Positions 9,760 through 23,267 of a stretch of 51,616 nt of DNA are shown here, in pieces. Position numbers and translations under genes: made by a program. How positions within the stretch are numbered: the first letter of the stretch is position 1; each line of letters begins with the position of its first letter. Source of the DNA: Klebsiella pneumoniae. Lineage in GTDB: Bacteria; Pseudomonadota; Gammaproteobacteria; Eutrophobiales; Eutrophobiaceae. Under the pieces are notes generated by a model. The model did no database searches, was not told where the DNA came from, and saw nothing but the letters and a program-made list of their open reading frames with translations. The stretch is taken from positions 1-51,616 of the forward strand of contig CAMBTO010000006.1 of the NCBI GenBank assembly GCA_945870865.1. Direction: 5' to 3'.

Positions 9760-10707
9760 ATGACTACAGTCATGTCAGGATTATTCAGGGGAAGGTTGAT
9801 AGTTAACGGATTGCTGGCAACATTGCTGCTGGTGCCGGGTTTCAGTCAGGCCGATGCGTCGAGTCAGGCGCAGGATCTCATTATGATGGCAGCACAGAAG
9901 GCAGGCAAGTCTGCCTGGGACGGCATGTCCACGCTGGTTGTCCATGAGTCGCAGGCACGCAATACCGATACCGGGCTATTGCAGATGGAACTTGACCATA
10001 CGATGGACATCAAGGGCCATGGCTACCGGATGGAGATCAGCAGCAGCAAGGGCAAACAGATTTACGGCTGGGACGGTAAAGAATTCTGGGCTGTCGTTGA
10101 TGGCAAACCCGGTGATGCCGATCAGGTCAAGGAAGCGAAACGTCTGATCTCGGATGCCTTCTACCGGTTCAGTCTGCCTTTCATACTTGGAGATAGTGGC
10201 CCTGCCATCAGCTACGAAGGCAAGGATGCTGTTGATGGTGTACCAACTGAAGTGGTGAAAATCACCTACAAAGGCGGGCCAGTAGACAGTTACTGGAGCA
10301 AGGCCGAAGAGGGTGATCATGCAGAACATGCCGGGCATTCAGCCGGGGAGCATGAAGAAGCGAAAGCTGAACACCAGGTAGAAGCCAAAGCCGAACATCA
10401 GAATGAGAATACTGAAAAGCATCAGCACAATGCCGAGGCGGCCGGTGATCATCCTGGGCACGGTAGCAGTCAGGTGTACTTTTATCACTTCGACAAGGAC
10501 TACCATATCGTCAAGATCTATTTTTCCCATCATGGCGATGACAGCTACGAGACCTTCCTGCTGGGAGATTTTACGGCTGTTAACGGTATCAGCCGCGAAC
10601 AGTCGCGCAAGCTGATACGTGAGGACGGGAATACGCTTTACGATACCCGGTTCACAGCTATCGAGTTCAGGAAAGACGGTGATGAGAGTCTTTATCATTC
10701 ACCCTGA
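9760..10707 (+). CDS. Exported protein with a histidine-rich insert
   Basis: A 315-residue protein with a signal peptide (LLATLLLVPGFSQADA). The body resembles a LolA-type sheet (GHGYRMEISSSKGKQIYGWD, then VPTEVVKITYKG), but I do not recognise a named family. Residues of roughly 186-235 are a His/Glu-rich low-complexity insert (for example HAEHAGHSAGEHEE and EKHQHNAEAAGDHPGHG), followed by more beta structure with HFDKDYHIVKIYFSHHGDD. Metal binding in the periplasm is a reasonable inference. It is followed by 278 bp without a gene and then the HEAT-repeat operon on the same strand. Confidence 0.7.
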   Translation: MTTVMSGLFRGRLIVNGLLATLLLVPGFSQADASSQAQDLIMMAAQKAGKSAWDGMSTLVVHESQARNTDTGLLQMELDHTMDIKGHGYRMEISSSKGKQIYGWDGKEFWAVVDGKPGDADQVKEAKRLISDAFYRFSLPFILGDSGPAISYEGKDAVDGVPTEVVKITYKGGPVDSYWSKAEEGDHAEHAGHSAGEHEEAKAEHQVEAKAEHQNENTEKHQHNAEAAGDHPGHGSSQVYFYHFDKDYHIVKIYFSHHGDDSYETFLLGDFTAVNGISREQSRKLIREDGNTLYDTRFTAIEFRKDGDESLYHSP

Positions 10708-10985
10708 TAACAGGATGTTCAGGATATTTCAGTGACACTTTTTTAAAAATGAAAGTCCATTTTATTGATGGAAAATTACTGAATAATCCGCTAGAGTCTG
10801 CGACGGATAAAAACGGCCTTGTATCGAAACAGTTGCCTGACCGATATGATGATGCAGTTAGTAACTGATACTAGGAGTTTATCTCCGTTTCGCGCATGCA
10901 ACGTTTTTTGGAACCGCGCCGTGTATGTAGAGAATAAAAAAAGTTTCCTTCCAGAACCCGTCCAGGGATAGTAGCGCTATTGTTC

Positions 10986-12530
10986 ATGAAAATTTCCGGA
11001 ATCCTGAAGTATTCAGTTTGTCTGTATTTGCTTGCAACCACCTCTGTATTTGCAGCGGTCAATGTCGAAAGACAGATCACAGCACTGGATCACCCGCTGT
11101 GGACCGCACGTCGTGATGCAGCAGATAACCTTGCCTCTGCCGGCAAGGATGGCGCAGCTGCTGTACCCAAACTTGTCGTATTGCTGGGAGATGTCGAGAA
11201 GGAAGTGCGACGGGCCAGTGTGCGTGCGCTTGTGGCTACAGGAGAGGGTTCTGCCGAGGCGGTGAACGGTCTGGTTGGCGCATTGCAGGATAGCGACTGG
11301 GTTGTCCGTCGCAGTGCAGCGCTCGCACTGGCAACCTTGCGTACTACAGCAAATGCTGCCATCCCCGAGATCCGCAAGTTGCTAACGGTTGAATCCGTTG
11401 ATATTCGTAACGCAGCGATACTGGCGCTGACAGGTCTGGCGCCTGACAGCAAACAGGCATTGCCTGATCTTATCAAGGCCTTGTCGGATCCGGACTGGAA
11501 AATTCGCTCGGGTGCGGCAGATGCACTGGGCAATCTTGGCTCCGATGCGAGCGAAGCCGTGACCCAGCTTGCAATAAATCTACGCGACCCGGACTGGCGA
11601 GTGGCCGAGCAGGTTGTAGAGGCGCTGTCCAAGATCGGTATAACGGCAGTGCCTGTATTGATAGAAGGTTTAAAGGCCGATAGTGTTCCGGTCAGATGGG
11701 GCTCTGCACGTGCGCTGGGTACAATGGGCGAAGGTGCGATTGAAGCGGTTCCGGCGCTGGCAGCTGCACTGGGGGATCCGGTCATGCAGGTACAGTGGGC
11801 CTCCGCCAGGGCCTTGTGGGCGATTGGTGAGCAGACAGACCACCAGACTGATCCCGAAACCATCCAGCTAATGATACAGATAATGAATGATGAGGACTGG
11901 GTCGTGCGCTGGGCTGTTGCCCGTGCGCTGGGCGTGGTAGGCGATCCTTCCGCAGGTACTATTGTAGGTGCACTGACAAACGCACTGGCTGACAAGGATT
12001 CGCGCGTTTGTGAAGCCGCTTCGTTTGCGCTGGAGCAAATGGGTCCTGCTGCGCAGGATGCGATACCGGCACTCGCCATCGCAGCAACCAAGACCGGTAC
12101 AGCAGGCATCGAAGCATGCAAGGTGATTGATGCCGTTGGCGAAGCCTCTGAAAAACTGGTAATCGGTACTGGCTGGACGGTGCGCTGGACTGCCACGCGG
12201 GCACTCGGTGTGGTTGGTTCGGAAAGCGAGACTTCGCTGTCACCGCTGATGGAAGCACTGAAGGATGCAGAGTGGCAGGTGCGAGGCGTCGCTGCACTTG
12301 CACTTGGTCAGCACCGTGCGCAGGTGTCTGCCGAGGTGGTGTCGGCCTTGTCTGACAGTCTGAAGGACGAGCAGGCCGGTGTCAGAATGGCAGCGGCGAT
12401 TGCACTCGGTCAGCTGGGCCCGTCTGCCGGCGCGGCCTTGGCGACATTGCAGGAATCCACAACTGATACAGAGCAACGTGTGCGCGAGGCTGTCGACGCG
12501 GCGATTGTGAAGATATCAGGGAAGGGATAA
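10986..12530 (+). CDS. Exported HEAT-repeat protein
   Basis: A 514-residue protein with a signal peptide (VCLYLLATTSVFA). The rest is about 14 HEAT-like repeats of roughly 30-35 residues with the pattern D-x-x-W-x-V-R-x-x-A-A-x-A-L-G. Clear units include DSDWVVRRSAALALATL, DPDWKIRSGAADALGNLG, DEDWVVRWAVARALGVVG and DEQAGVRMAAAIALGQLG. Such solenoids are protein-binding scaffolds. I chose ATG 10986 over the TTG at 10980 because it gives a normal signal peptide. It is nine bases upstream of the next gene and starts a six-gene run. Confidence 0.85.
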   Translation: MKISGILKYSVCLYLLATTSVFAAVNVERQITALDHPLWTARRDAADNLASAGKDGAAAVPKLVVLLGDVEKEVRRASVRALVATGEGSAEAVNGLVGALQDSDWVVRRSAALALATLRTTANAAIPEIRKLLTVESVDIRNAAILALTGLAPDSKQALPDLIKALSDPDWKIRSGAADALGNLGSDASEAVTQLAINLRDPDWRVAEQVVEALSKIGITAVPVLIEGLKADSVPVRWGSARALGTMGEGAIEAVPALAAALGDPVMQVQWASARALWAIGEQTDHQTDPETIQLMIQIMNDEDWVVRWAVARALGVVGDPSAGTIVGALTNALADKDSRVCEAASFALEQMGPAAQDAIPALAIAATKTGTAGIEACKVIDAVGEASEKLVIGTGWTVRWTATRALGVVGSESETSLSPLMEALKDAEWQVRGVAALALGQHRAQVSAEVVSALSDSLKDEQAGVRMAAAIALGQLGPSAGAALATLQESTTDTEQRVREAVDAAIVKISGKG

Positions 12531-12539
12531 ACGGAGGGA

Positions 12540-13316
12540 ATGATGATGACAAAATTGAACAGAATGGCACTACAGATGGTTTCGATCTTAGTGTTGCTCG
12601 CAAGCGGACAGGTGCAGGCGCACATATTGAATGAAACCAGCCAGTTTCCGGACATCAAGACCTCCGAGGCCCGGTTTGACATCGTATTGCTCGTTGGTGC
12701 GGGGGTTATTCCGGAAACGCCGCAGTTTGAACCTGAAAAAAAGTTTTCACGAACTGATCTCGCCGCCTGGGCCGCACACACAGCCGGTTTGCTGAAGTCC
12801 GCAGACAAAGCGGATATAAAGGCACTGGCAAGTGCCGCGCTGGAACAGGGGCTGGTAACCTCGCTGGAAGGTGATGCTAGCTATGCGGACATCAATACGG
12901 TATTCATGCAGGGTAAAGGCACCGCCGCTCAGGCCGAAGCGACACCAACCCGGGCCCAGGCTGCCAGTTATCTGGTTGCTGGTCTGGCTACACAGGTTGT
13001 CGGTTCATTACTTGAAAAGACAGCAGCATTACCCGGGCCCACAGGTGTAGTCACCAGTATTGAATCGAAAACTAATCCGGATGGCGGTAGCAGCCAGTTC
13101 CTTGCAATCGGTGATACCACCCTGCCGGTATATACGCATGCCAAGGTCGGTAACGGATCATCCAGTCTCGCCAAGTGGAAAGGTCTGACCGTCAGGCGAT
13201 CCTACATCCGTAAGATGGGTGATATATCGGTCTGGTTGTATCTGGAAGCTGAAACGGTGGCTGGTCAGACGGCAGAGCCGGTACATGAACATTCCACGCA
13301 TAAGCATGCAGAATAA
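12540..13316 (+). CDS. Exported SLH-like protein, paralogue 1, with His-rich tail
   Basis: A 258-residue exported protein. After the signal peptide comes an S-layer-homology-like module (FPDIKTSEARFDIVLLVGAG, then FSRTDLAAWAA). The C-terminal domain of about 90 residues starts with TGVVTSIESKTNPDGGSSQF and is shared with the next gene. It ends in a possible metal-binding tail, HEHSTHKHAE. SLH modules usually anchor proteins to cell-wall polymers, but this one is divergent and its ligand is unknown. It lies 9 bp after the HEAT-repeat gene. Confidence 0.75.
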   Translation: MMMTKLNRMALQMVSILVLLASGQVQAHILNETSQFPDIKTSEARFDIVLLVGAGVIPETPQFEPEKKFSRTDLAAWAAHTAGLLKSADKADIKALASAALEQGLVTSLEGDASYADINTVFMQGKGTAAQAEATPTRAQAASYLVAGLATQVVGSLLEKTAALPGPTGVVTSIESKTNPDGGSSQFLAIGDTTLPVYTHAKVGNGSSSLAKWKGLTVRRSYIRKMGDISVWLYLEAETVAGQTAEPVHEHSTHKHAE

Positions 13317-13362
13317 CGGCAACCGAAGATATCTAACGATCAGTAGAAGGACTTAATCCGGC

Positions 13363-14244
13363 ATGAGTAGTATAACAAGACAGGCAGGATCACTCTTATT
13401 TGCAGCGCTGTTACTGGCAGTTGTAATGGGCAGCACTCCGGCGCTGGCGCACATCAAGAACGATGCCAGTCAGTTTCCCGACATCGAGTTTTCAGACGCG
13501 AGATTCTACATCGTAATCCTGGTTGGAGCGGGCATTATCCCGGAGACACCGGTATTTGAACCCGATGCGCCGTTGTCACGAGCTGATCTTGCAGTCTGGG
13601 CGGCGTTATACAACAACCTGGGGGAAGGTGGTGAGACACCGGATACTGAAGCGTTGTCGAAGGCGGCACTCGAGCAGGGCGTGATTGCGGCACTGGATGG
13701 TCCTGCAAGCTATACGGATATCAACAACATTTTTTTTCAGGGACATCTTGTGCTCGATCAGCCAGATGCCGGTTTGACCAAGGCTGAAGCGGCGAGCTTT
13801 ATCGGCGGTCATTTTGCTACCACCGAAGGTGTTGCGCTGTTGCAGAAACGCGGACTGGAATCCGGTCCGACCGGCCAGATTTCACAGGTGGAATCACGCA
13901 CGAACCCTGACGGCGGCAGTAGCTATTTCATCACCGTAGGTGGAACCACGATGCCGATGTATTCGCATGGTCGCGTCGCCAACGGACCTACCGATCTCGT
14001 ACAATGGCAGGGCAGGACTATCAGAAAGTCCTTTGTACGCAAACAGGCTGAACTGACCTTGTGGATGTATCTTGAGGCAGAGCCTGTGCAGGCCGTTGTT
14101 GCTGACACGGCATCCCAGGCAGCACTGGACAGTGCAAACGCCGAACCGGTCATCCAGACCAATCGTAGTCTGCTATACGGACTGACTGGTGGCGTATTGA
14201 TTCTGGGCATTATATTGTTTTTCAAGCGCAAGCGGATCGGCTGA
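13363..14244 (+). CDS. Exported SLH-like protein, paralogue 2, with C-terminal membrane anchor
   Basis: A 293-residue paralogue of the preceding gene. It has the same signal peptide, SLH-like module (FPDIEFSDARFYIVILVGAG, LSRADLAVWAAL) and C-terminal domain (GQISQVESRTNPDGGSSYF). In place of the His-rich tail it has a linker, one hydrophobic segment (YGLTGGVLILGIILFF) and a basic end (KRKRIG). That topology puts the domains outside the cytoplasmic membrane with a single C-terminal anchor; the shape also resembles sorting tails. Tandem duplication is likely. Codon use is like that of its neighbours. Confidence 0.78.
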   Translation: MSSITRQAGSLLFAALLLAVVMGSTPALAHIKNDASQFPDIEFSDARFYIVILVGAGIIPETPVFEPDAPLSRADLAVWAALYNNLGEGGETPDTEALSKAALEQGVIAALDGPASYTDINNIFFQGHLVLDQPDAGLTKAEAASFIGGHFATTEGVALLQKRGLESGPTGQISQVESRTNPDGGSSYFITVGGTTMPMYSHGRVANGPTDLVQWQGRTIRKSFVRKQAELTLWMYLEAEPVQAVVADTASQAALDSANAEPVIQTNRSLLYGLTGGVLILGIILFFKRKRIG

Positions 14245-14278
14245 TCCGGCTGTAATTTAATGACAAGTAGAGGAGGGG

Positions 14279-14986
14279 CTGGCCATCGACATCGTACTTG
14301 AACACGTACACAAACGTTATGAGAACGCGGGGTTTACCGCGCTTGATAATGTTTCGCTGAAGATAGGGTCCGGGGAGTGGGTGTTTCTGGTCGGTGCATC
14401 CGGCATGGGTAAATCCACCTTGCTGAAACTGTTGTACAAGGAAGTGGTGGCGGATCAAGGCAAGGTCCTGATCGGTGGTGAGGATGTGGCGCGCACACCG
14501 GGCAGTCGCCTGCGGCGCTCGATGGGGATCATCTTCCAGAACTTCCGTCTGCTTGAGAAAAAAACTGCATTTGAGAATATCGCCTACGGCGCAGAAGTGC
14601 TGGCGATGCCGCCCGCAGAAGTCCGTCGCCGAACTATGGAAATTCTGGAGCTGGTGGGGTTGCACGAGAAGGCTCATCGCTTGCCGAGTGAGTTGTCCGG
14701 CGGCGAACAACAGAGGGTTGCTGTTGGCCGTGCACTGATTAACCGGCCAAAGATGCTGATTGCCGATGAGCCAACCGGTGATCTGGATCCGGAAAATACC
14801 GACCGCGTACTTGATATTTTTGATCGGGTATACCGCGAACACAAGACCACCATCGTATTTGCCACCCATGCTGTAGATGTAGTTAACCGGCTGTCTCGCC
14901 GCGTAATACGCATGAAAAATGGCCGGGTCGAGAGTGATACGATGGGTGGTTACTGGGCAGAAGACAAACAGGCAGGTGCGAAATGA
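14279..14986 (+). CDS. FtsE-like ABC transporter ATPase with non-ATG start
   Basis: An ABC ATPase of the FtsE/LolD type. The Walker A (VGASGMGKST), Q-loop (IIFQNFRLL), signature (LSGGEQQRVAVGRAL), Walker B (MLIADEPTGDLD) and H-loop (VFATHAVD) are all intact. The homologous N-terminus (IVLEHVHKRYENAGFTALD) begins well upstream of the first GTG (14381). No in-frame ATG, GTG or TTG lies between the upstream stop (14261-14263) and there, so initiation is probably at CTG 14279 (Met-Ala-Ile) behind AGAGGAGG, or at ATC 14285. It overlaps the permease gene by four bases (ATGA), so they form one unit. It is probably a paralogue rather than the division FtsE. Confidence 0.85.
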   Translation: MAIDIVLEHVHKRYENAGFTALDNVSLKIGSGEWVFLVGASGMGKSTLLKLLYKEVVADQGKVLIGGEDVARTPGSRLRRSMGIIFQNFRLLEKKTAFENIAYGAEVLAMPPAEVRRRTMEILELVGLHEKAHRLPSELSGGEQQRVAVGRALINRPKMLIADEPTGDLDPENTDRVLDIFDRVYREHKTTIVFATHAVDVVNRLSRRVIRMKNGRVESDTMGGYWAEDKQAGAK

Positions 14987-15858
14987 GTCTCTGGGCAATT
15001 TTCTACAGGTTAAGAGAGGCGCGTGAAGGTATCGCGCGTAATACATGGGCCAGTGTGGCCACGGTCGTTTTGCTGACGTTGACGCTGCTGATGTTTGGTG
15101 GCTTCCTTTGGCTGAATGCGAACATCGCCCAGGTGGCAACGATGCTGGAGCGACAGGTGCAGGTCCGGGTGTTCCCAGCGGACGGTACCGCCGCTGAAGT
15201 CCTGGTTCCGCAAATCCAGGCGCTGCCCGGTGTTGCCGGAGTAAAGGTGCTGGAAGGTGAGCTGGTATACGAACAGTTGGCGCCGGTCTTCGGTCGGCAG
15301 ACGCTAATGAATGCATTACCGGCGGATGCGTTTGCCGACAGCCTTTCCGTTGAACTGAAAGATCCGACCCAGGCCACACCGACGGTTGAGGCAATTCGTG
15401 GGATGAGCGGTGTGGGTGATGTAATCTGGGGCCAGGGATTTGCCGAGGTACTCTACCGGATTTCAAACGGTATCCAGAAAGGTGGTGTAATCCTGATCAT
15501 CGGTTTCTTTATCGCTGCTTTACTGATGAGTCTGACAGCGATGCAGCTGGCCGTACTTAATCGCGAAGTTGAAATCCAGATCCAGCGCTGGGTCGGCGTT
15601 GGGCCGTGGGGTATCCGTGCCCAGTTTCTGGTTGAGGCGTTTTTGCTGGGTACGTTTTCATCTATCCTTGCCGGGGCGGCTTTTCTATATCTCGGTGAAG
15701 TGATCCAGCAGGTCATTATTTCGCTGGTACCCTTCATGTCGAACCAGCTGACATCACCCATGCTGGTTATCGGTGTGGTGCTGGTGACCGGCCCTGTGCT
15801 TGCCCTGCTTGGTGGCGGTCTCGCCAGTCAGCGCGCTATTGGTATGGGAGACAAATGA
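14983..15858 (+). CDS. FtsX-like ABC permease
   Basis: A 291-residue protein with FtsX topology: a transmembrane helix near residues 23-44, a periplasmic domain of about 120 residues, then three helices near 168-190, 212-238 and 258-282. FtsEX complexes do not transport. They pass ATP-driven movement to a periplasmic partner, such as EnvC, that activates cell-wall hydrolases. It overlaps the ATPase gene upstream and the coiled-coil gene downstream by four bases each, the expected layout for an FtsEX-partner unit. The genes usually beside the division ftsEX (ftsY, rpoH) are absent. Confidence 0.85.
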   Translation: MSLWAIFYRLREAREGIARNTWASVATVVLLTLTLLMFGGFLWLNANIAQVATMLERQVQVRVFPADGTAAEVLVPQIQALPGVAGVKVLEGELVYEQLAPVFGRQTLMNALPADAFADSLSVELKDPTQATPTVEAIRGMSGVGDVIWGQGFAEVLYRISNGIQKGGVILIIGFFIAALLMSLTAMQLAVLNREVEIQIQRWVGVGPWGIRAQFLVEAFLLGTFSSILAGAAFLYLGEVIQQVIISLVPFMSNQLTSPMLVIGVVLVTGPVLALLGGGLASQRAIGMGDK

Positions 15859-16895
15859 ACAAGGCCCGCCTGTTACTGGTACTGTCGCTCGTCCTTGTGA
15901 CCGGGCTGCTGGTACCGCGTGCGTTTGCCCACCTGTCTGGCGTGTTTGCGTATTTTGTGCAGGACATTAACGAGCCGTCGGCCAGCACTCGTATGCTGCA
16001 ACAGCAACTGGACAGTGTAGGCGGGCGTATTGCCGCACTCGAACCTGAAGTAGATAAGGCACGTGCTGATTATGATACCCAGGCAGATTCTGCGGTGCAG
16101 CGAATCCGCTTTTATGATGTTTATGTTGGCAGTGCACTGGGTGCCCTCTGGGCGGGCGCGCAGGACCCGATAGACGTATTGGCCAGTACCGAGTTGATGC
16201 AGAAACGTCTGGGTGAAGATCTTGACGCACTGGCAAAACTGGCTGATTCATACAACAAGCTGCAGGGCCAGGAAGTTTCGCTGCGTCGCTATGCAGATCT
16301 GCTGGTTCCGTTTCGTACCGCTTCGCAGGCCAGGGATGAGAAGCTGGCGAACGTACCGGAAGGACTGGTCTCGCCGTTTGCAGAACCTTATATCGCCTAC
16401 CGCATTGCGGAAGACTGGGAAGAGTTACGCGGCACAACCTTTACGCTGTTCTTTAACTGGGCCGCGAGTAAGATAGCCGATCAGGGCGTCGGTGCGGTAC
16501 TCGACAAGATGGATACGACCGGGCATACCTGGCAGTTGACAGAGGAAAACCTGAATGCGCTGGTTGGTGGTGACGGTTTTCCGTTCATGAAGGATGTACG
16601 TTTCTATATCCGGGCGGACCATCTGAATTTATCTGCCAGGTTGATTTCTTCCCGCAATGAATACAATTTGCTCACTGTAGGCCAGATTGAACGTACCGGA
16701 CCGGCGAGCGTGCAATACCGCATAGAGGGTATTTTTATTGATGGCATGCCGATCGATCCGAACGACCCGGATATGCAACGTGAGGTTTATCGCGGCCAAT
16801 TAATGGGTATTAATATTGAGTCGCTGAAGCCGCCAGAAGCGACCGTTGCGGCATTTGAACAGCAGAACGGTTACCTGCAGTTTCGGTTCCAGTAA
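15855..16895 (+). CDS. Exported coiled-coil protein, candidate partner of the FtsEX-like complex
   Basis: A 346-residue protein with a signal peptide (LLLVLSLVLVTGLLVPRAFA). A helical stretch (MLQQQLDSVGGRIAALEPEV to about residue 130) is likely to form a coiled coil. The C-terminal domain is mixed alpha/beta (from about MKDVRFYIRADHLNLSARLI onwards) and I do not recognise it. There is no visible LytM, NlpC/P60 or CHAP hydrolase domain. The four-base overlap with the FtsX-like gene and the coiled coil place it where EnvC- or PcsB-type partners occur in other FtsEX systems. That role is inferred from position. Confidence 0.7.
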   Translation: MNKARLLLVLSLVLVTGLLVPRAFAHLSGVFAYFVQDINEPSASTRMLQQQLDSVGGRIAALEPEVDKARADYDTQADSAVQRIRFYDVYVGSALGALWAGAQDPIDVLASTELMQKRLGEDLDALAKLADSYNKLQGQEVSLRRYADLLVPFRTASQARDEKLANVPEGLVSPFAEPYIAYRIAEDWEELRGTTFTLFFNWAASKIADQGVGAVLDKMDTTGHTWQLTEENLNALVGGDGFPFMKDVRFYIRADHLNLSARLISSRNEYNLLTVGQIERTGPASVQYRIEGIFIDGMPIDPNDPDMQREVYRGQLMGINIESLKPPEATVAAFEQQNGYLQFRFQ

Positions 16896-17393
16896 CGGAC
16901 GACAGTCAACCGGTATGCTGTTTTTCCATATTCCGGATTATGGCAATGTGAAGGATATTTTAGACTTCCGCGCCGGATGTTTGCCTTATTTTTTGTAAGG
17001 CTGTAGTATTTATTTCATTTGTTGTTAGCAAGGTAACTGCGTTGAATACCAAGCAGCCTTACCGCTCTGCCTGATCACAGATCTTTAACCGCACAGGTTC
17101 TGTACGAAAGTGACTGTCAGTATGGCTATGTCATATCAATAAGTTGTCCATGGCAGTGATTTGCCCTGGAAAAAATGGCCTGGGGGGCTGAATGGGGAGC
17201 AGTGTACAGAATATTCAATATGGGTACTGTCATATGCTGCCCGTCTTTCATAAATATATTACTGATACAGAGTGACCCCGGAGAGTTGTTATACGATTTT
17301 TGTGGGTAGTGATCATGCTGCTGGTTCATATCTACACAGGATGAACCTTGTTGCCTCGACTGATACTGATTATAAAATTGAGAGATAAGTGCA
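16896..17393. other. Intergenic region between the FtsEX-like run and the MoxR run
   Basis: A 498-bp stretch without a convincing gene on either strand. A weak promoter-like pair, TTGCCT (17351-17356) and TAAAAT (17373-17378) with a 16-nt spacer, lies just before the MoxR gene, but it would leave a very short leader. AAGGCTG (about 16998) and CAGCCTT (about 17054) could pair across a long loop. No strong terminator is seen after the coiled-coil gene. Confidence 0.35.
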
Positions 17394-18410
17394 ATGAGTA
17401 CTATGGATTTTGAACGGGCTATAAAACTGACTCGGGACTTGAGAGACAATCTGGGCAAGGTTGTAAAAGGCCATGAAACCGGCGTAGATTTACTCGTTAT
17501 AGCCCTGACGGCAAAGGGACATGTATTGCTGGAGTCTGTCCCTGGCGAAGGAAAGACATTGTTATCAACCGCACTGGCCGCTTCGATTGAAGGTATGTCC
17601 TCAGGACGTATCTCGGGTCAGCCCACCTTGAAACCGTCCGATTTGCTCGGTGCGGAGGTTGCCGCTGGCGAAGGCAACGACAGGTTTGAACTGATCAAGG
17701 GGCCCATCTTTAATAATATCGTTTTGTTTGACGAGTTAAACAGAACCGATCCGCGGACGCAGTCTGCCCTGCTGGAAGCGATGCAGGAGCATCAGGTTAC
17801 GATAGGCAGCAGCTCACACAAGTTACCGCAGCCATTTAATGTCATTGCCACACAGAACCCGCTTTCACATGAAGGTACGTGGGAACTGGACGCCGCTGCA
17901 AAACAGCGCTTTATGGTCAAGATTGAATGGACATTTTCTTCACGCGAGATCGAATTCCAGATTGCACGTGAAGCAAAGGCCTCGCTGAAAGAGAACCTGG
18001 AAAAAATCAAACCTGTGATTAGTCGAACCGAATTTGCTGACGTTCAGCAACTGATTCAGAAAGAGGTCACAATTTCGGATGCGATTGTACATCTGATGAA
18101 TGCTGTTACCGTTGCAACCCGTCGTTCCGACCCATCCTATCCGGCGGATGCATTTGACCAGGCAGGTTTTGGTCGTGAGGTCATCAGCCCGGCCGGTGGC
18201 GCAAGTTCGAGAACTACGAGTTTCTGGCCGCCGTTCCTGCGTGCACATGCCTTTTTCCATGGCCGTCGTCACGTGGTGCCGTATGACGTGTTTGCCACCG
18301 CCGTGCCGGTACTTAACCACCGTATTGAAACCAGTTATCCAGTCGACACCACGAAACTGATTAATCTTATCCTGAGTGAAAGGGGCTATGCCTACAACCT
18401 CACCGCATAA
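17394..18410 (+). CDS. MoxR-family AAA ATPase
   Basis: A 338-residue MoxR-type AAA+ ATPase. It has Walker A (VPGEGKT, residues 49-55), Walker B (IVLFDELNR), sensor 1 (NVIATQNP) and the family lid with an arginine pattern. MoxR ATPases act with vWA-domain proteins as chaperones for maturation or metal insertion. This one leads a six-gene run whose order matches mxaR, S, A, C, K, L of methylotrophs, where the set is needed to make active calcium methanol dehydrogenase. The ATG at 17394 follows a GAGAG ribosome site. The next gene starts inside its 3' end. Confidence 0.9.
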   Translation: MSTMDFERAIKLTRDLRDNLGKVVKGHETGVDLLVIALTAKGHVLLESVPGEGKTLLSTALAASIEGMSSGRISGQPTLKPSDLLGAEVAAGEGNDRFELIKGPIFNNIVLFDELNRTDPRTQSALLEAMQEHQVTIGSSSHKLPQPFNVIATQNPLSHEGTWELDAAAKQRFMVKIEWTFSSREIEFQIAREAKASLKENLEKIKPVISRTEFADVQQLIQKEVTISDAIVHLMNAVTVATRRSDPSYPADAFDQAGFGREVISPAGGASSRTTSFWPPFLRAHAFFHGRRHVVPYDVFATAVPVLNHRIETSYPVDTTKLINLILSERGYAYNLTA

Positions 18411-19299
18411 CGATTCCGCCATGGCAGCAGACCGCCACGCGCTACAGGCGCTGGGTGTGTTGATGCCAATCCGGCTTTCACCGCTGAAATTCCTGCCGGG
18501 CAGGCACCCGCTCGGCCGTGCAGGTAGCGGTCTGCGTTTTTTGCGCACACGACGATTTATACAGGGAGAGGACAATCCCCGCGATATCGACAAGTTTAGT
18601 CCACAGAACGATCGTCAGGTTATAGAGTGGGAAGAAGAGGCGCAGGCGGCAGTGATGGTGCTTGCAGATGTCTCTGCATCCATGGCAACGCCTTCCAAGG
18701 CATCCTTACGCAACACCGCAGTGTTACAGTTGACCTATTCATTGTGGCGTGCGGGCGATCGCATCGGGACGATTTTTTTCAGCTCTGGACTGCATCAGGA
18801 AATCAGGGCGGCTAACCTGAAAATGCAGATGGAGCGTTTGACCACGGCGTTATCCGGTCTGGGCAGCTACCCTGATACGGACATCCTTACCGTGCTTAAA
18901 CGCTATATGAGCCAGTCCACACGTAACCGGCCAGACATCCTGTTTGTAGTATCGGACTTTGTTTCGATGAGCCAGCACAATCTGCAACTGGATGCGGAGT
19001 GGTATCCGGTACTCAACAAGTTAAGGAATAACCTGATACCTGTAATCATCACATTTGCCATCCCGTCCGGAATACGCGGGATGCTTAAACTGTGGGACCC
19101 GGAACGCCAGGCCAGACGTCTTGCGTGGTTTTCTTCCAGCCGGGTCAAACAAATCAACCAGGAAGAAAAAGATCGTGTTGCAGCCCTGACAAGCAAGTTC
19201 AGGGCGGCCGGGCTGGATTATCTGGTTATATCCAGTCAGCGAGAAATTTATCCCCAATTAGCCCAGTTGGCACGACAGCGTCGAGGCAGGAAAAACTGA
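18388..19299 (+). CDS. DUF58 protein with vWA-like metal site (MxaS-like)
   Basis: A DUF58 protein of 303 residues. The N-terminal part holds the family run GRHPLGRAGSGLRFLRTR and DNPRDIDKFSPQND. A vWA-like domain follows with an intact DxSxS metal site (LADVSAS). DUF58 proteins are usual partners of MoxR ATPases. I chose ATG 18388, which sits behind AAAGGGG, over the in-frame GTG at 18376. It overlaps the MoxR gene by 23 bases, which suggests translational coupling. Position two in the run corresponds to MxaS. Confidence 0.85.
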   Translation: MPTTSPHNDSAMAADRHALQALGVLMPIRLSPLKFLPGRHPLGRAGSGLRFLRTRRFIQGEDNPRDIDKFSPQNDRQVIEWEEEAQAAVMVLADVSASMATPSKASLRNTAVLQLTYSLWRAGDRIGTIFFSSGLHQEIRAANLKMQMERLTTALSGLGSYPDTDILTVLKRYMSQSTRNRPDILFVVSDFVSMSQHNLQLDAEWYPVLNKLRNNLIPVIITFAIPSGIRGMLKLWDPERQARRLAWFSSSRVKQINQEEKDRVAALTSKFRAAGLDYLVISSQREIYPQLAQLARQRRGRKN

Positions 19300-19300
19300 T

Positions 19301-20299
19301 ATGTTAAAAACATTACTGAAGTCAGCTTTGTTACTTGTAATCTCAACCAGTGTGTACGCACTTGAATATGTCCCGGAGGTTTACAAGGACGATTATGTCG
19401 TTGTGCGATCCGGCGTGATGGAATCAGGCAGTCAGCCGATTAATCTCGGCGATCAGTTAAACCTGACCATTGAAATTGATTTCAAAACGGATGAAGTTCT
19501 GGTGGAAAACCTGAGTGAGGATATCTTCCGTCGTAACTGGGGAACTGAAAAAGGTCTGGTGCTGAATAACCCGCCGCTAGTTACAGTGACAACTGTAAAT
19601 GACCGGATCTCGACATTACGTGCAGTGTATCCGTTTGAGGTACTCGATTGCCCGGGTGAAGTGATTTCCTGTCCTGGACACAAGATGTATACCTTGCCGG
19701 TGATCACGCTGGGCTACCAGATTCTGGACAACAGTGGCGCGGTGGTGAATAACAAATCTATCCGTTTTAACAGCTGGCCCGGTTCGCTGGTGGTCACGCC
19801 GGTATTGCATGTTGATCATGAAGGATTGGGGGAGTTTGCAAGTTATTTTCCTGACGGTGCCTACAGTGGCAGTGTGGGGTATACCGACATCTATACTGGA
19901 GGGCTGTGGACGGCACTTTTTGGTGGTCTGCTGGTACTGACCAGTTTTGCTCCTGCCCTGTTTGCCAGTCCTGCGCCTCGTCGCACTGAAGTATCCAGAA
20001 AATCCGGCAAACGCTGGGAAAATGTACTGGCCTTGTTGCAGGACAATCCAGACCGGTTTACGGATGAAGAATGGTCGGATCTGATCAGGCGCAGTGCTGT
20101 CTGGTACTGTATGGATGAATATGCCTTTAACCCGTATACATGGCTGACCGATCCGTCTTCGGGAAACACCCAGACCTTGCAGACCTTCAGGTCCTATTTT
20201 ATTGATGTGATGAATGAAGAAGGCATAGACAAGGCGCATCGCTCAGGATTTGTGTCCCGGTTTCGTGAGCTTGCCGGTTTATCCGGTACCGGCCAGTAG
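19301..20299 (+). CDS. Exported MxaA/BatD-like protein
   Basis: A 332-residue protein with a signal peptide (LLKSALLLVISTSVYA), a periplasmic beta-rich domain, one transmembrane segment (LWTALFGGLLVLTSFAPALF, about residues 203-222) and a cytoplasmic helical tail. A Cys pair (DCPGEVISCPG) lies in the external domain. This layout fits MxaA/BatD-like partners of the vWA proteins. Similarity is judged by topology and gene order, since the sequence itself is weakly conserved. It starts one base after the DUF58 stop codon. Confidence 0.7.
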   Translation: MLKTLLKSALLLVISTSVYALEYVPEVYKDDYVVVRSGVMESGSQPINLGDQLNLTIEIDFKTDEVLVENLSEDIFRRNWGTEKGLVLNNPPLVTVTTVNDRISTLRAVYPFEVLDCPGEVISCPGHKMYTLPVITLGYQILDNSGAVVNNKSIRFNSWPGSLVVTPVLHVDHEGLGEFASYFPDGAYSGSVGYTDIYTGGLWTALFGGLLVLTSFAPALFASPAPRRTEVSRKSGKRWENVLALLQDNPDRFTDEEWSDLIRRSAVWYCMDEYAFNPYTWLTDPSSGNTQTLQTFRSYFIDVMNEEGIDKAHRSGFVSRFRELAGLSGTGQ

Positions 20300-20310
20300 G
20301 GTGTGGCGGC

Positions 20311-21366
20311 TTGATTGATTGGGGCAGTTTTCATTTTGAACGGACCTGGCCTGTCTGGCTGGGACTGTGTACGGCATTGATATTGTTCGCGATATGGTAT
20401 TTTCATCGAAAGACCCATTTCCCGGACATGATGCTGGTCACCAACACGGTCCGGTTTCGGGGTATCACTGACCGCTTGCCGGTCATTCTGGGCGGAATTG
20501 TTCTTGCCCTGCTGGTGATATCGTTGATGGAGCCATCGCTGGTCAGGACAGTGACGGTGGATCAACGGGCGCGGGATTTTCTGGTTGTGGTGGATACATC
20601 GAGATCGATGCGCCACGATGCGAATGTTAAACGCGACTCGGTAGAGTTGAGATATGAAAGGCGTGCCGGAACCTTTGCATCGAATGTGGATGATCCGAAC
20701 AAGTTGCCATTGCTGGCGCGTTATGAGCTGGCACGCGAGAGTCTGCTCAGCTTCCTTGAGCAACGCAAGGCACAGGACAGGGTAGGCATGATTTATTTTA
20801 ATGACAATGTCTTTACCATGTCAGCGCCAACGGCGAATATTGATTTTGTGACCGAACAGCTCGGTTCGATGGATGAATACGTTAACTGGGGAACCGACAT
20901 CGCACTGGCGATGCAGTCAGGTCTGAACCTGCTGGAGCGGTATCCGGACCAGAACAAGAAGGCAGTTATCCTGTTGACCGACGCAGAAGCGGCCTATACA
21001 AAAGAAGTAGAGGAACAACTGGCCAGGGTAGCCAGCATGGGGATCTCCTTTTATCTGTTGTGGATTACAACGGATGAGAAAAACATGGCGAACGAGGAGA
21101 TCACCAAGTTTCTGGATTACGCAAGGTCAGTGGGCACTGTGATTACACTGGAGAATCTGGATAGCAGAAATCTGGAAGATTCGTTGCGTGATATAGGGAT
21201 GCTGGAAGATTACAGTTATAAGGAAGAAAAAAGGCAACGGCTGGATCTGTCGCAACCATTCCTGGATGCTGCCAGATACCTTTTGCTGATCTGGCTGTTG
21301 CTGGTGGCCACGATTTTTCATCCGGGAACTTCAGACAGGAATATTTTCAAGCGGGGTAAAATATGA
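20311..21366 (+). CDS. Membrane vWA-domain protein (MxaC/BatA-like)
   Basis: A 351-residue protein with two N-terminal membrane helices (about residues 12-30 and 55-75), a vWA domain and a third helix near the C-terminus (YLLLIWLLLVATIFHP). The metal-ion-dependent adhesion site is intact: DTSRS, a Thr in NWGTDIAL and an Asp in LLTDAEA. The start is TTG at 20311, since no nearby ATG is in frame. In methylotrophs MxaC occupies this position and is needed for methanol dehydrogenase maturation. The last four bases overlap the next gene. Confidence 0.82.
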   Translation: MIDWGSFHFERTWPVWLGLCTALILFAIWYFHRKTHFPDMMLVTNTVRFRGITDRLPVILGGIVLALLVISLMEPSLVRTVTVDQRARDFLVVVDTSRSMRHDANVKRDSVELRYERRAGTFASNVDDPNKLPLLARYELARESLLSFLEQRKAQDRVGMIYFNDNVFTMSAPTANIDFVTEQLGSMDEYVNWGTDIALAMQSGLNLLERYPDQNKKAVILLTDAEAAYTKEVEEQLARVASMGISFYLLWITTDEKNMANEEITKFLDYARSVGTVITLENLDSRNLEDSLRDIGMLEDYSYKEEKRQRLDLSQPFLDAARYLLLIWLLLVATIFHPGTSDRNIFKRGKI

Positions 21367-22298
21367 GTGATGCGTCATTACAAGGTGTTGCTGGCAAGCA
21401 GGTTGCCTTGCTGGATATGGTCCGGACAGCAGTAGCAGGATACGGCCTGCGGGCCTTGAGGATACCGGGAATTATAGTACTCGTCGCCGGGTTGCAAGCC
21501 TGGGGTTTTTACAATCATTTTGTACCGACACTCACTGATGCCAATGCCGATCTGGATCAATTGATGAATGAGGTCTCATCCAACACCCAGATGGACAAGG
21601 TGCTGCGTGAGCTGGACAACTTCCGCCGGGTCGCGGGAGATGAAGGCCTGCAAAAAGAGGTCGTCGTCGTATATGAAAGATTCATCAAGGAATTTCTGGA
21701 AAATCGTACCCAGGGTCTTGATGCCTTTGCCAAGGCGGTAAACGCATTTCCGGCGCCCGCCGCGACGCTGGGCGCAGAATCACTCGCCCGGGTCAAGACT
21801 GAACTTGAGCAGGTACGCGAGATATACGGTGATCATTATTCCGGGTTACTGGCAGACCTGGACAGCCCGCCAATTTATCTGCAACCAACCGCCTCCATAC
21901 TCAAAAAGAACAACCCGCTGGTGCAGAAGGTCAGGTTTAACCATGCCGTTTATAACTCAATCGTGGGTGATATGGCCGTTGCCAATATCACATTTAACGA
22001 GCTGAAGCAGGAAGTGAAAGACCCTGAGTTCTCCTCTGTCATCCATTTTGCACAGGCTCGTATGCAATACACCGCGTTCAAGTCTGAAGGCAAGTTTGAA
22101 TATTTCCAGCAGTCTATCCAGAACCTGCAACAGAGTATGCGTCTTGATTCATATTATGGTCTGCCAAAGATGTTGCTTGAGTATCTGTTGTCCGTAGAGG
22201 GTGGTGCATCGTCCCAAAGCTCGTCAGTACAGGGCGAGGGTACAGGTGAGGCAGAAGGGGAACGTGGGGTAATATCCTCTGCGCCATCGAATTTCTAG
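21363..22298 (+). CDS. MxaK-like membrane-anchored helical protein
   Basis: A 311-residue protein with one N-terminal membrane segment (IPGIIVLVAGLQAWGF, about residues 34-50) and a mostly helical external part that may form TPR-like repeats (FSSVIHFAQARMQYTAFKSE, then the IQNLQQSMRLD region). The C-terminus is low complexity (Ser, Gly, Glu). I recognise no catalytic motif. Its place between the two vWA genes corresponds to MxaK. It overlaps the upstream gene by four bases, and the next gene starts immediately after its stop codon. Confidence 0.65.
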   Translation: MSDASLQGVAGKQVALLDMVRTAVAGYGLRALRIPGIIVLVAGLQAWGFYNHFVPTLTDANADLDQLMNEVSSNTQMDKVLRELDNFRRVAGDEGLQKEVVVVYERFIKEFLENRTQGLDAFAKAVNAFPAPAATLGAESLARVKTELEQVREIYGDHYSGLLADLDSPPIYLQPTASILKKNNPLVQKVRFNHAVYNSIVGDMAVANITFNELKQEVKDPEFSSVIHFAQARMQYTAFKSEGKFEYFQQSIQNLQQSMRLDSYYGLPKMLLEYLLSVEGGASSQSSSVQGEGTGEAEGERGVISSAPSNF

Positions 22299-23267
22299 GT
22301 GAACAGTCAGGCAGTTATGTTCTGGTGTGTGTTGGCCACAGGTGTGGCTGTCACCGCCTATTGGGTTTTTTTTGCCGATCGTACCGCCGATACCCGTCGC
22401 CCCTCGGGGTTGATATCAGCGCTGGTAGTTGCGTCATTTGCATTGACCTTCTGGTCGGCCTGGCTTGAACGTCCGTCATACAGTTATAATGCAGATGTAA
22501 ACCCGATAGCGATATCGATAGCGTTTGACCTTTCCCCAAGCATGCTTGCTATACCGGACCCGGCATCCGGCTCCGATCTGACACCACGTTACCAGCGGGG
22601 CATAAATTCACTGCTTGAATTACTGGCTGAGTTGGAAGACCGCCAGATAGACGTGCTGGTTTCAATGATCGGTTTTACCCAGAAGGCAGAAGTGATTATG
22701 GGCTGGGAGAGTAATATTTCCCAGATACGTGAGATGCTGCAATATGTAGTATCTCCAGAGTTGTTCACCAGTACCGGTACCAGTATCGAAGAGGCCACCA
22801 AGGGCCTGATCCAGTCATTCAATACGTTACCGGACAACCTCAAGCAGGACACCACCAAGGTAGGAATACTCGTCTCGGATGGTGAGGATACCTCCACCTA
22901 CTCCTTCCTCGAATATGTGATGGAAGAGCTCGAAACCAACGAGTTTGACATGATTACCTTGCAGACCGGTTTGCTCGATCAGAGTGAAGGGGTCCCACGT
23001 TATGGTGAGTTTGGCGAATTTGTCGATTTCGAGCCGATGGGAGGCAAATTATATACGGTACCAGATGTCGAAACGATGACGCGGCTTTCAGATGTGCCGA
23101 ATCATCGCGGGCTATATGTGCGTGCCGAGTCGACGGGGGCACCGGCACAGATGTTGAATTTTATATCGAGTTCAGGCCCGCTGGATTCCGGACTGGATCA
23201 GAAACTCGGAGTGATACTCGCGCTGTTTCTGGTCATCAGTATGCTCTATGCCAGACAGGTGATGTAA
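22299..23267 (+). CDS. Membrane vWA-domain protein (MxaL-like)
   Basis: A 322-residue protein with two N-terminal membrane segments, a vWA domain and a C-terminal helix (LGVILALFLVISMLYA). The metal site is intact with a slight variation: DLSPS, TSTGTSIEEA and LVSDGEDTS. The start is GTG at 22299, directly after the preceding TAG, so translation is probably coupled. As the second vWA protein and last gene of the run, it corresponds to MxaL. The pair of vWA proteins probably forms a heteromeric complex that the MoxR ATPase acts on. Confidence 0.82.
   Translation: MNSQAVMFWCVLATGVAVTAYWVFFADRTADTRRPSGLISALVVASFALTFWSAWLERPSYSYNADVNPIAISIAFDLSPSMLAIPDPASGSDLTPRYQRGINSLLELLAELEDRQIDVLVSMIGFTQKAEVIMGWESNISQIREMLQYVVSPELFTSTGTSIEEATKGLIQSFNTLPDNLKQDTTKVGILVSDGEDTSTYSFLEYVMEELETNEFDMITLQTGLLDQSEGVPRYGEFGEFVDFEPMGGKLYTVPDVETMTRLSDVPNHRGLYVRAESTGAPAQMLNFISSSGPLDSGLDQKLGVILALFLVISMLYARQVM

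Follow-up and report, generated by a model that had tools for sequence, protein, structure and literature searches.

ATP binding and hydrolysis by Type VII ABC complexes are converted into motion in the periplasm, and it is the partner protein that defines the function of each complex (PMC12646458). In the FtsEX–EnvC complex, two FtsX periplasmic domains grip a hairpin formed by an antiparallel coiled coil; the contact lies close to the tip, at the end of the first and the beginning of the second long helix (PMC7668044). When acting with VWA partners, MoxR proteins remodel their targets and insert metals (PMC13036017). Here, we describe a locus in a 51,616-nucleotide (nt) stretch of contig CAMBTO010000006.1 (hereafter the window), in which an FtsE-like ATPase and an FtsX-like permease (FtsE2 and FtsX2) are encoded together with an exported helical protein and lie upstream of a MoxR-DUF58-VWA module. 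The exported protein, which an earlier note on this DNA called coiled-coil, is referred to as the hairpin protein. On balance, we favour, with moderate confidence, the view that FtsE2 and FtsX2 form a second, non-divisional FtsEX-type Type VII ABC complex that uses ATP to drive the assembly or maturation of a genus-specific envelope complex through a new hairpin partner.

The six close or overlapping genes on the + strand that the earlier note placed at 10986–16895 are real, and they are separated by 9, 46, 40, -4, and -4 nt; the ftsE2-ftsX2 and ftsX2-hairpin junctions are thus stop/start overlaps. Their products (lengths in amino acids, aa; TM, transmembrane segment; pLDDT, predicted local distance difference test) are as follows.

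10986..12530, + strand: exported HEAT-repeat protein, 514 aa (PF13646, 1e-70; signal peptide by sequence; 5/5 genomes)
12540..13316, + strand: SLH-like exported protein 1 (SLH1), 258 aa, with a His-rich tail (45% identical to SLH2; no Pfam match of its own)
13363..14244, + strand: SLH-like protein 2 (SLH2), 293 aa, with a helical SLH-like part, a small β-barrel (OB-like) domain at 165-239, and a C-terminal TM (SLH 18.1 bits, below the cut-off; model pLDDT 74.5)
about 14285..14986, + strand: FtsE-like ABC ATPase (FtsE2), 233 aa (TIGR02673, 235.7 bits; Walker A, signature, and Walker B intact)
14983..15858, + strand: FtsX-like permease (FtsX2), 291 aa, with an FtsX periplasmic domain (PF18075 and PF02687 over the cut-off; TIGR00439, 108 bits)
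15855..16895, + strand: exported hairpin protein, 346 aa, modelled with two long helices that form a hairpin at 43-164 and with a C-terminal α/β domain at 225-346 (no hydrolase domain; 5/5 genomes)

As the earlier note had read, all products except the ATPase carry signal peptides or TM segments by sequence, and one SLH-like protein is membrane-anchored, namely SLH2, through its C-terminal TM at 269-287. The HEAT label is certain (PF13646, HEAT_2, 234 bits). In a scan of the locus, promoter and terminator signals were no commoner than chance.

Profile matches likewise assign FtsE2 and FtsX2 to their families with certainty. FtsE2 matches Pfam ABC_tran at 125 bits, and FtsX2 matches FtsX_ECD (PF18075) at 35.7 bits (cut-off 23.5) and FtsX (PF02687) at 31.1 bits. 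With hydrophobic segments near residues 24-42, 169-187, 215-249, and 260-278, FtsX2 and its ATPase show the Type VII ABC layout, in which the ATPase is a separate protein and the FtsX-fold permease spans the membrane four times, its periplasmic domain lying between the first two TM helices. Both fall short of the division equivalogs, FtsE2 scoring 235.7 bits against a TIGR02673 cut-off of 264.85 and FtsX2 scoring 108 bits against a TIGR00439 cut-off of 255, whereas the other FtsE and FtsX of the genome pass the same models at 276 and 339.1 bits, respectively. The latter are encoded in an ftsY-ftsE-ftsX-rpoH cluster on another contig of the same assembly, and the division FtsX shares 22% identity with FtsX2. 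The genome also encodes, away from the window pair and between gpmM and a ctpA-like gene, an EnvC that carries a peptidase-M23 (LytM) domain; in E. coli, too, envC lies in the gpmM neighbourhood. The window pair is therefore not the division pair, and the alternative considered in the earlier note, that it is the genome's only ftsEX and has an EnvC-like role, does not hold.

The start of ftsE2 is unusual. No ATG, GTG, or TTG codon occurs between the upstream in-frame stop and a conserved ATC in any of the five genomes compared (two hold only GCC GTC), and this ATC (14285-14287) is found at the same site in G001–G004 and is preceded, 8-9 nt to its 5' side, by a purine-rich Shine-Dalgarno-like stretch. 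Judging from these features, ftsE2 apparently initiates at ATC.

The genus sample consisted of the window genome (G000) and four others (G001–G004), all from lake-dwelling gammaproteobacteria. The boundary given in the earlier note proved too narrow, because the conserved block extends from 9760 to 23267. In 5/5 genomes (in G003 over two contigs with overlapping ends), genes occur in the fixed order His-rich protein, HEAT, SLH1, SLH2, FtsE2, FtsX2, hairpin protein, MoxR, DUF58, anchored exported protein, VWA, familyless protein, and VWA. The additional members are listed below.

9760..10707, + strand: exported His-rich protein, 315 aa, first gene of the block (syntenic in 5/5 genomes)
17394..18410, + strand: MoxR-type AAA+ ATPase (PF07726, 1.9e-43; syntenic in 5/5)
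18376..19299, + strand: DUF58/VWA protein with a DxSxS motif (PF01882, 1e-9; 5/5)
19301..20299, + strand: exported, membrane-anchored MoxR-operon protein without a family match (Pfam and NCBIfam scans; TM analysis)
20311..21366, + strand: membrane-anchored VWA protein with a BatA/B-like layout (PF13519, 3e-12; TMs)
21363..22298, + strand: MoxR-operon protein, 311 aa, without a family match (Pfam scan; synteny)
22299..23267, + strand: second membrane-anchored VWA protein (PF00092, 21.8 bits, below the cut-off of 23.8; TMs)

In G002 and G003, the other exported proteins are as little as 38-58% identical to those of the window, but FtsE2, FtsX2, and the hairpin protein still retain 70-81%. Ratios of non-synonymous to synonymous substitution rates (dN/dS) between G000 and G001 were 0.009-0.086 for the eight genes tested: 0.009 for FtsE2 (0.009-0.030 overall), 0.016 for FtsX2, 0.040 for both the hairpin protein and MoxR, and 0.064-0.086 for HEAT, SLH1, SLH2, and the first gene. 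These low values indicate that the eight genes are under strong purifying selection for function and, with the order preserved down to these identities, that the arrangement is more than chance. The flanks of the block vary, with EamA and cupin genes directly 3' in three genomes and amidohydrolase-like genes in two. Directly 5' of the first gene, G002, G003, and G004 encode an exported protein of 726-752 aa (L010:16064-18244, L075:4645-6822, and L012:3944-6199), which is absent from this position in the window; it has a carboxypeptidase-regulatory-like domain (below the cut-off), and the G002 copy contains CxxCH.

The conserved co-occurrence that the earlier note had proposed to search for is complete in all five genomes and ends at the genus boundary. 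The hairpin protein was found in 5 of 193 relatives and the anchored MoxR-operon protein in 5 of 144, all of them in this genus. The hairpin profile detected no genome outside the genus among 398 sampled across Pseudomonadota, the SLH-like profile detected no other genome among 369 sampled in the class, and no relative was found in plasmids and viral contigs. Phyla beyond Pseudomonadota were covered by one contig scan with the hairpin protein, which reached close relatives only. Outside the genus, the FtsX2 profile (E <= 1e-12) retrieved a single distant genus, represented by six genomes, at ~25% identity where aligned, and inspection of five of these six loci showed no neighbouring relative of the hairpin, HEAT, SLH, or MoxR proteins. 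At the sensitivity used, the linkage thus holds in every sampled genome of one genus and is absent beyond it. The whole block also occurs in a metagenome-assembled contig titled Klebsiella pneumoniae (CAMDWI010000007.1, L008), with a hairpin protein 96% identical to that of the window, and this title therefore looks wrong.

Three features, namely a periplasmic domain specific to FtsX, an overlapping gene that encodes an exported hairpin-like protein, and the joint constraint on these genes, make an arrangement like that of FtsEX–EnvC our best guess by analogy. FtsE2 would bind and hydrolyse ATP and thereby move the periplasmic domains of FtsX2, as expected from the family, and FtsX2 would grip the helical hairpin in the product of the next gene, as suggested by the gene order, the overlap, and the anatomy of EnvC. 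This motion would swing or release the C-terminal α/β domain of the hairpin protein, which may then act on co-encoded partners, namely the two SLH/OB-like proteins (one membrane-anchored), the periplasmic HEAT scaffold, and the His-rich exported protein. The MoxR-DUF58-VWA module directly downstream, in which a MoxR AAA+ protein and DUF58/VWA proteins with DxSxS metal-site motifs are read in the sequence, may serve as a dedicated chaperone helper for envelope assembly. The block probably encodes a dedicated machine of the envelope that is distinct from the division apparatus. The earlier note had proposed a role in envelope assembly or movement rather than division; a separate envelope role for the second FtsEX is supported, but nothing in favour of movement was found. 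Only tentatively do we advance the fuller proposal that this is a mechanotransmission machine of the FtsEX type with no control over peptidoglycan hydrolases, and that its hairpin adaptor and MoxR-VWA module assemble or metallate a complex found only in this genus.

Several observations weigh against the assembly or maturation reading. The structural model of the hairpin protein, with two long helices (43-99 and 105-164) followed by the α/β domain, is of low confidence (pLDDT 55), and heptad periodicity is not significant, so that the coiled-coil label given earlier is weak. A fold search with this model returned generic long-helix matches with poor E-values, and no homology was detected between the hairpin protein and EnvC or FtsX-binding coiled coils. 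Comparison with EnvC gave an E-value of 1.5 in BLASTP and 0.3% in hhalign, and 4 of 200 block shuffles reached or exceeded the observed score. Residues 85-119 look by eye like the tip of the EnvC hairpin, but this likeness was not supported, as the block-shuffle test matched the beginning of the first helix and not the tip. The protein has nothing over the Pfam cut-off, nothing notable in NCBIfam, and nothing meaningful among PDB sequences; however, the coiled coil of the genome's real EnvC, used as a control, matches no Pfam model over the cut-off either, and such profiles therefore say little about the hairpin protein.

The connection with the MoxR module is also open to objection. A 498-nt gap separates the hairpin gene from moxR in the window, and an M24-peptidase-like gene occupies this position in two species (G002 and G003; L011:2912-4252 and L010:7843-9204), suggesting that the module may be transcribed on its own; no remnant of the M24 gene was found in the window's gap. 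In addition, a paralogous MoxR-DUF58-VWA operon without ftsEX, with 25-69% identity, is present in 5/5 genomes (L050–L054, i.e. G000:C37, G001:C10, G002:C1, G003:C42, and G004:C4; the G000 copy is cut by a contig end), indicating that MoxR and FtsEX modules can work apart. The neighbours of this operon include genes for an EamA-like transporter and an amidohydrolase; where the sequence covers them, cupin and Rieske genes, which have relatives beside the window operon, are present as well.

The strongest alternative is that FtsE2 and FtsX2 control peptidoglycan hydrolysis at a non-septal site, the C-terminal domain of the hairpin protein activating a hydrolase encoded elsewhere, as EnvC does with amidases. 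Well-studied FtsEX complexes govern peptidoglycan hydrolases, either directly or via an adaptor (PMC11627006, PMC10694151). Each genome encodes 5 M23 proteins that are possible targets, and the best-scoring FtsX model for FtsX2 is the Gram-positive-type model. The best solved relative of FtsX2 is chain 8idb_C (3e-15), from an entry that we take to be mycobacterial FtsEX. As the earlier note had stated, however, the partner lacks a hydrolase domain: none was found in Pfam, NCBIfam, or PDB sequences, and the Pfam and NCBIfam scans detected no LytM, NlpC/P60, CHAP, or amidase domain in it, nor any hydrolase gene in the conserved block. To our knowledge, MoxR and HEAT neighbours are also atypical of hydrolase-controlling FtsEX loci. 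We consider this alternative unlikely, though worth keeping in view.

The SLH-like proteins and the histidine residues of the block bear on a second alternative, metalloprotein maturation. The SLH-like label itself has a slender basis: one repeat of SLH2 scores 18.1 bits, below the cut-off of 20.8, and the SLH profile gives weak matches in three of nine SLH-like members. No SLH match at E <= 0.01 and no CsaB-family pyruvyl transferase (PF04230) was found in the five genus genomes, whereas control genomes match both. A fold search with the SLH2 model (pLDDT 74.5) placed no SLH structure among the best matches, and the C-terminal barrel gave weak OB-fold matches. A histidine is apparently left at the mature N-terminus after signal peptide cleavage (AxA|H) in SLH1, SLH2, and the hairpin protein, H30 and H26 being invariant across the genus, and the first-gene product and SLH1 contain His-rich stretches. 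A third SLH-like copy occurs in two of the five genomes (G000 C12 L028:3147-4004, with a His-rich tail, and G001:C11:77963-78766) near genes for a TonB receptor, DUF2946, a YtkA-like protein, and CCP_MauG (a di-haem peroxidase), a setting that may be copper-related.

It is conceivable from these features that the SLH/OB-like and His-rich proteins bind metal, possibly copper, and that the second FtsEX and the MoxR-VWA proteins load an envelope enzyme, in keeping with metal insertion by MoxR-VWA pairs (PMC13036017). The N-terminal histidines could simply reflect signal-peptide usage, and the third copy is confined to those two genomes; this alternative appears rather improbable, less so than the two considered next.

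Extraction of lipid or lipoprotein, as by LolCDE–LolA or YbbAP–TesA and with the first-gene product as a LolA-like carrier, is in line with the handling of lipid-like substrates by other Type VII ABC systems (PMC12646458) and with an exported-protein gene 5' of the ABC genes. The first-gene product matches nothing in Pfam, NCBIfam, or PDB sequences, and its comparison with LolA was negative (probability 1.5%); FtsX2 carries the FtsX-specific periplasmic domain and matches no MacB-type domain in Pfam, which makes this explanation very unlikely. A defence system of the MoxR-vWA kind, suggested by a match of MoxR to PF20030 bpMoxR (29.0 bits, cut-off 27), can be given hardly any credence, as ternary conflict systems of this kind have a third component (VMAP, iSTAND, FtsH, or β-propeller) and an effector (PMC7159879), none of which was found in Pfam, NCBIfam, and PADLOC scans (PADLOC yielded generic HEAT and ATPase matches only), and as the block has a fixed position and is under strong purifying selection.

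FtsEX, MoxR-VWA modules, and HEAT proteins are each familiar on their own; in agreement with the earlier note, no described system with this gene set was found in the open-access literature. In the literature found, FtsEX acts on peptidoglycan hydrolases. If the proposed assembly or maturation role is correct, a second FtsEX with an FtsX periplasmic domain and a non-hydrolase partner, situated by a MoxR-VWA module, would represent a motor redeployed to another envelope task, and MoxR-VWA modules would gain a testable periplasmic working partner. FtsE2 and FtsX2 plausibly work like FtsEX, although they fail the tests for division FtsEX. Like FtsEX–EnvC in E. coli division, the window system has an FtsE-type ATPase with intact motifs, an FtsX periplasmic domain, and an exported partner predicted to form a long helical hairpin; unlike it, the pair is a second copy below the division cut-offs, and the partner has neither a LytM domain nor detectable EnvC homology. 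The locus also differs from the division ftsEX locus in lacking ftsY and rpoH and in containing HEAT, SLH-like, and MoxR genes. With Gram-positive and mycobacterial FtsEX–PcsB/CwlO/RipC it shares the type of FtsX, in that the Gram-positive-type model fits FtsX2 best and the nearest solved structure is the FtsX of 8idb; PcsB, CwlO, and RipC are hydrolases themselves, whereas the window partner has no hydrolase domain. YbbAP–TesA, LolCDE–LolA, and MacAB–TolC are similar in that a periplasmic partner sets the work of an ABC complex, but the window permease is of the FtsX type and no TesA, LolA, or MacA/TolC relative was found in the block. Finally, the downstream genes resemble the MoxR-VWA modules NorQD, RavA–ViaA, and the Bat operons in that a single compact operon encodes MoxR, DUF58, and two membrane-bound VWA proteins, and differ from them in being kept beside an FtsEX-type complex in this genus.

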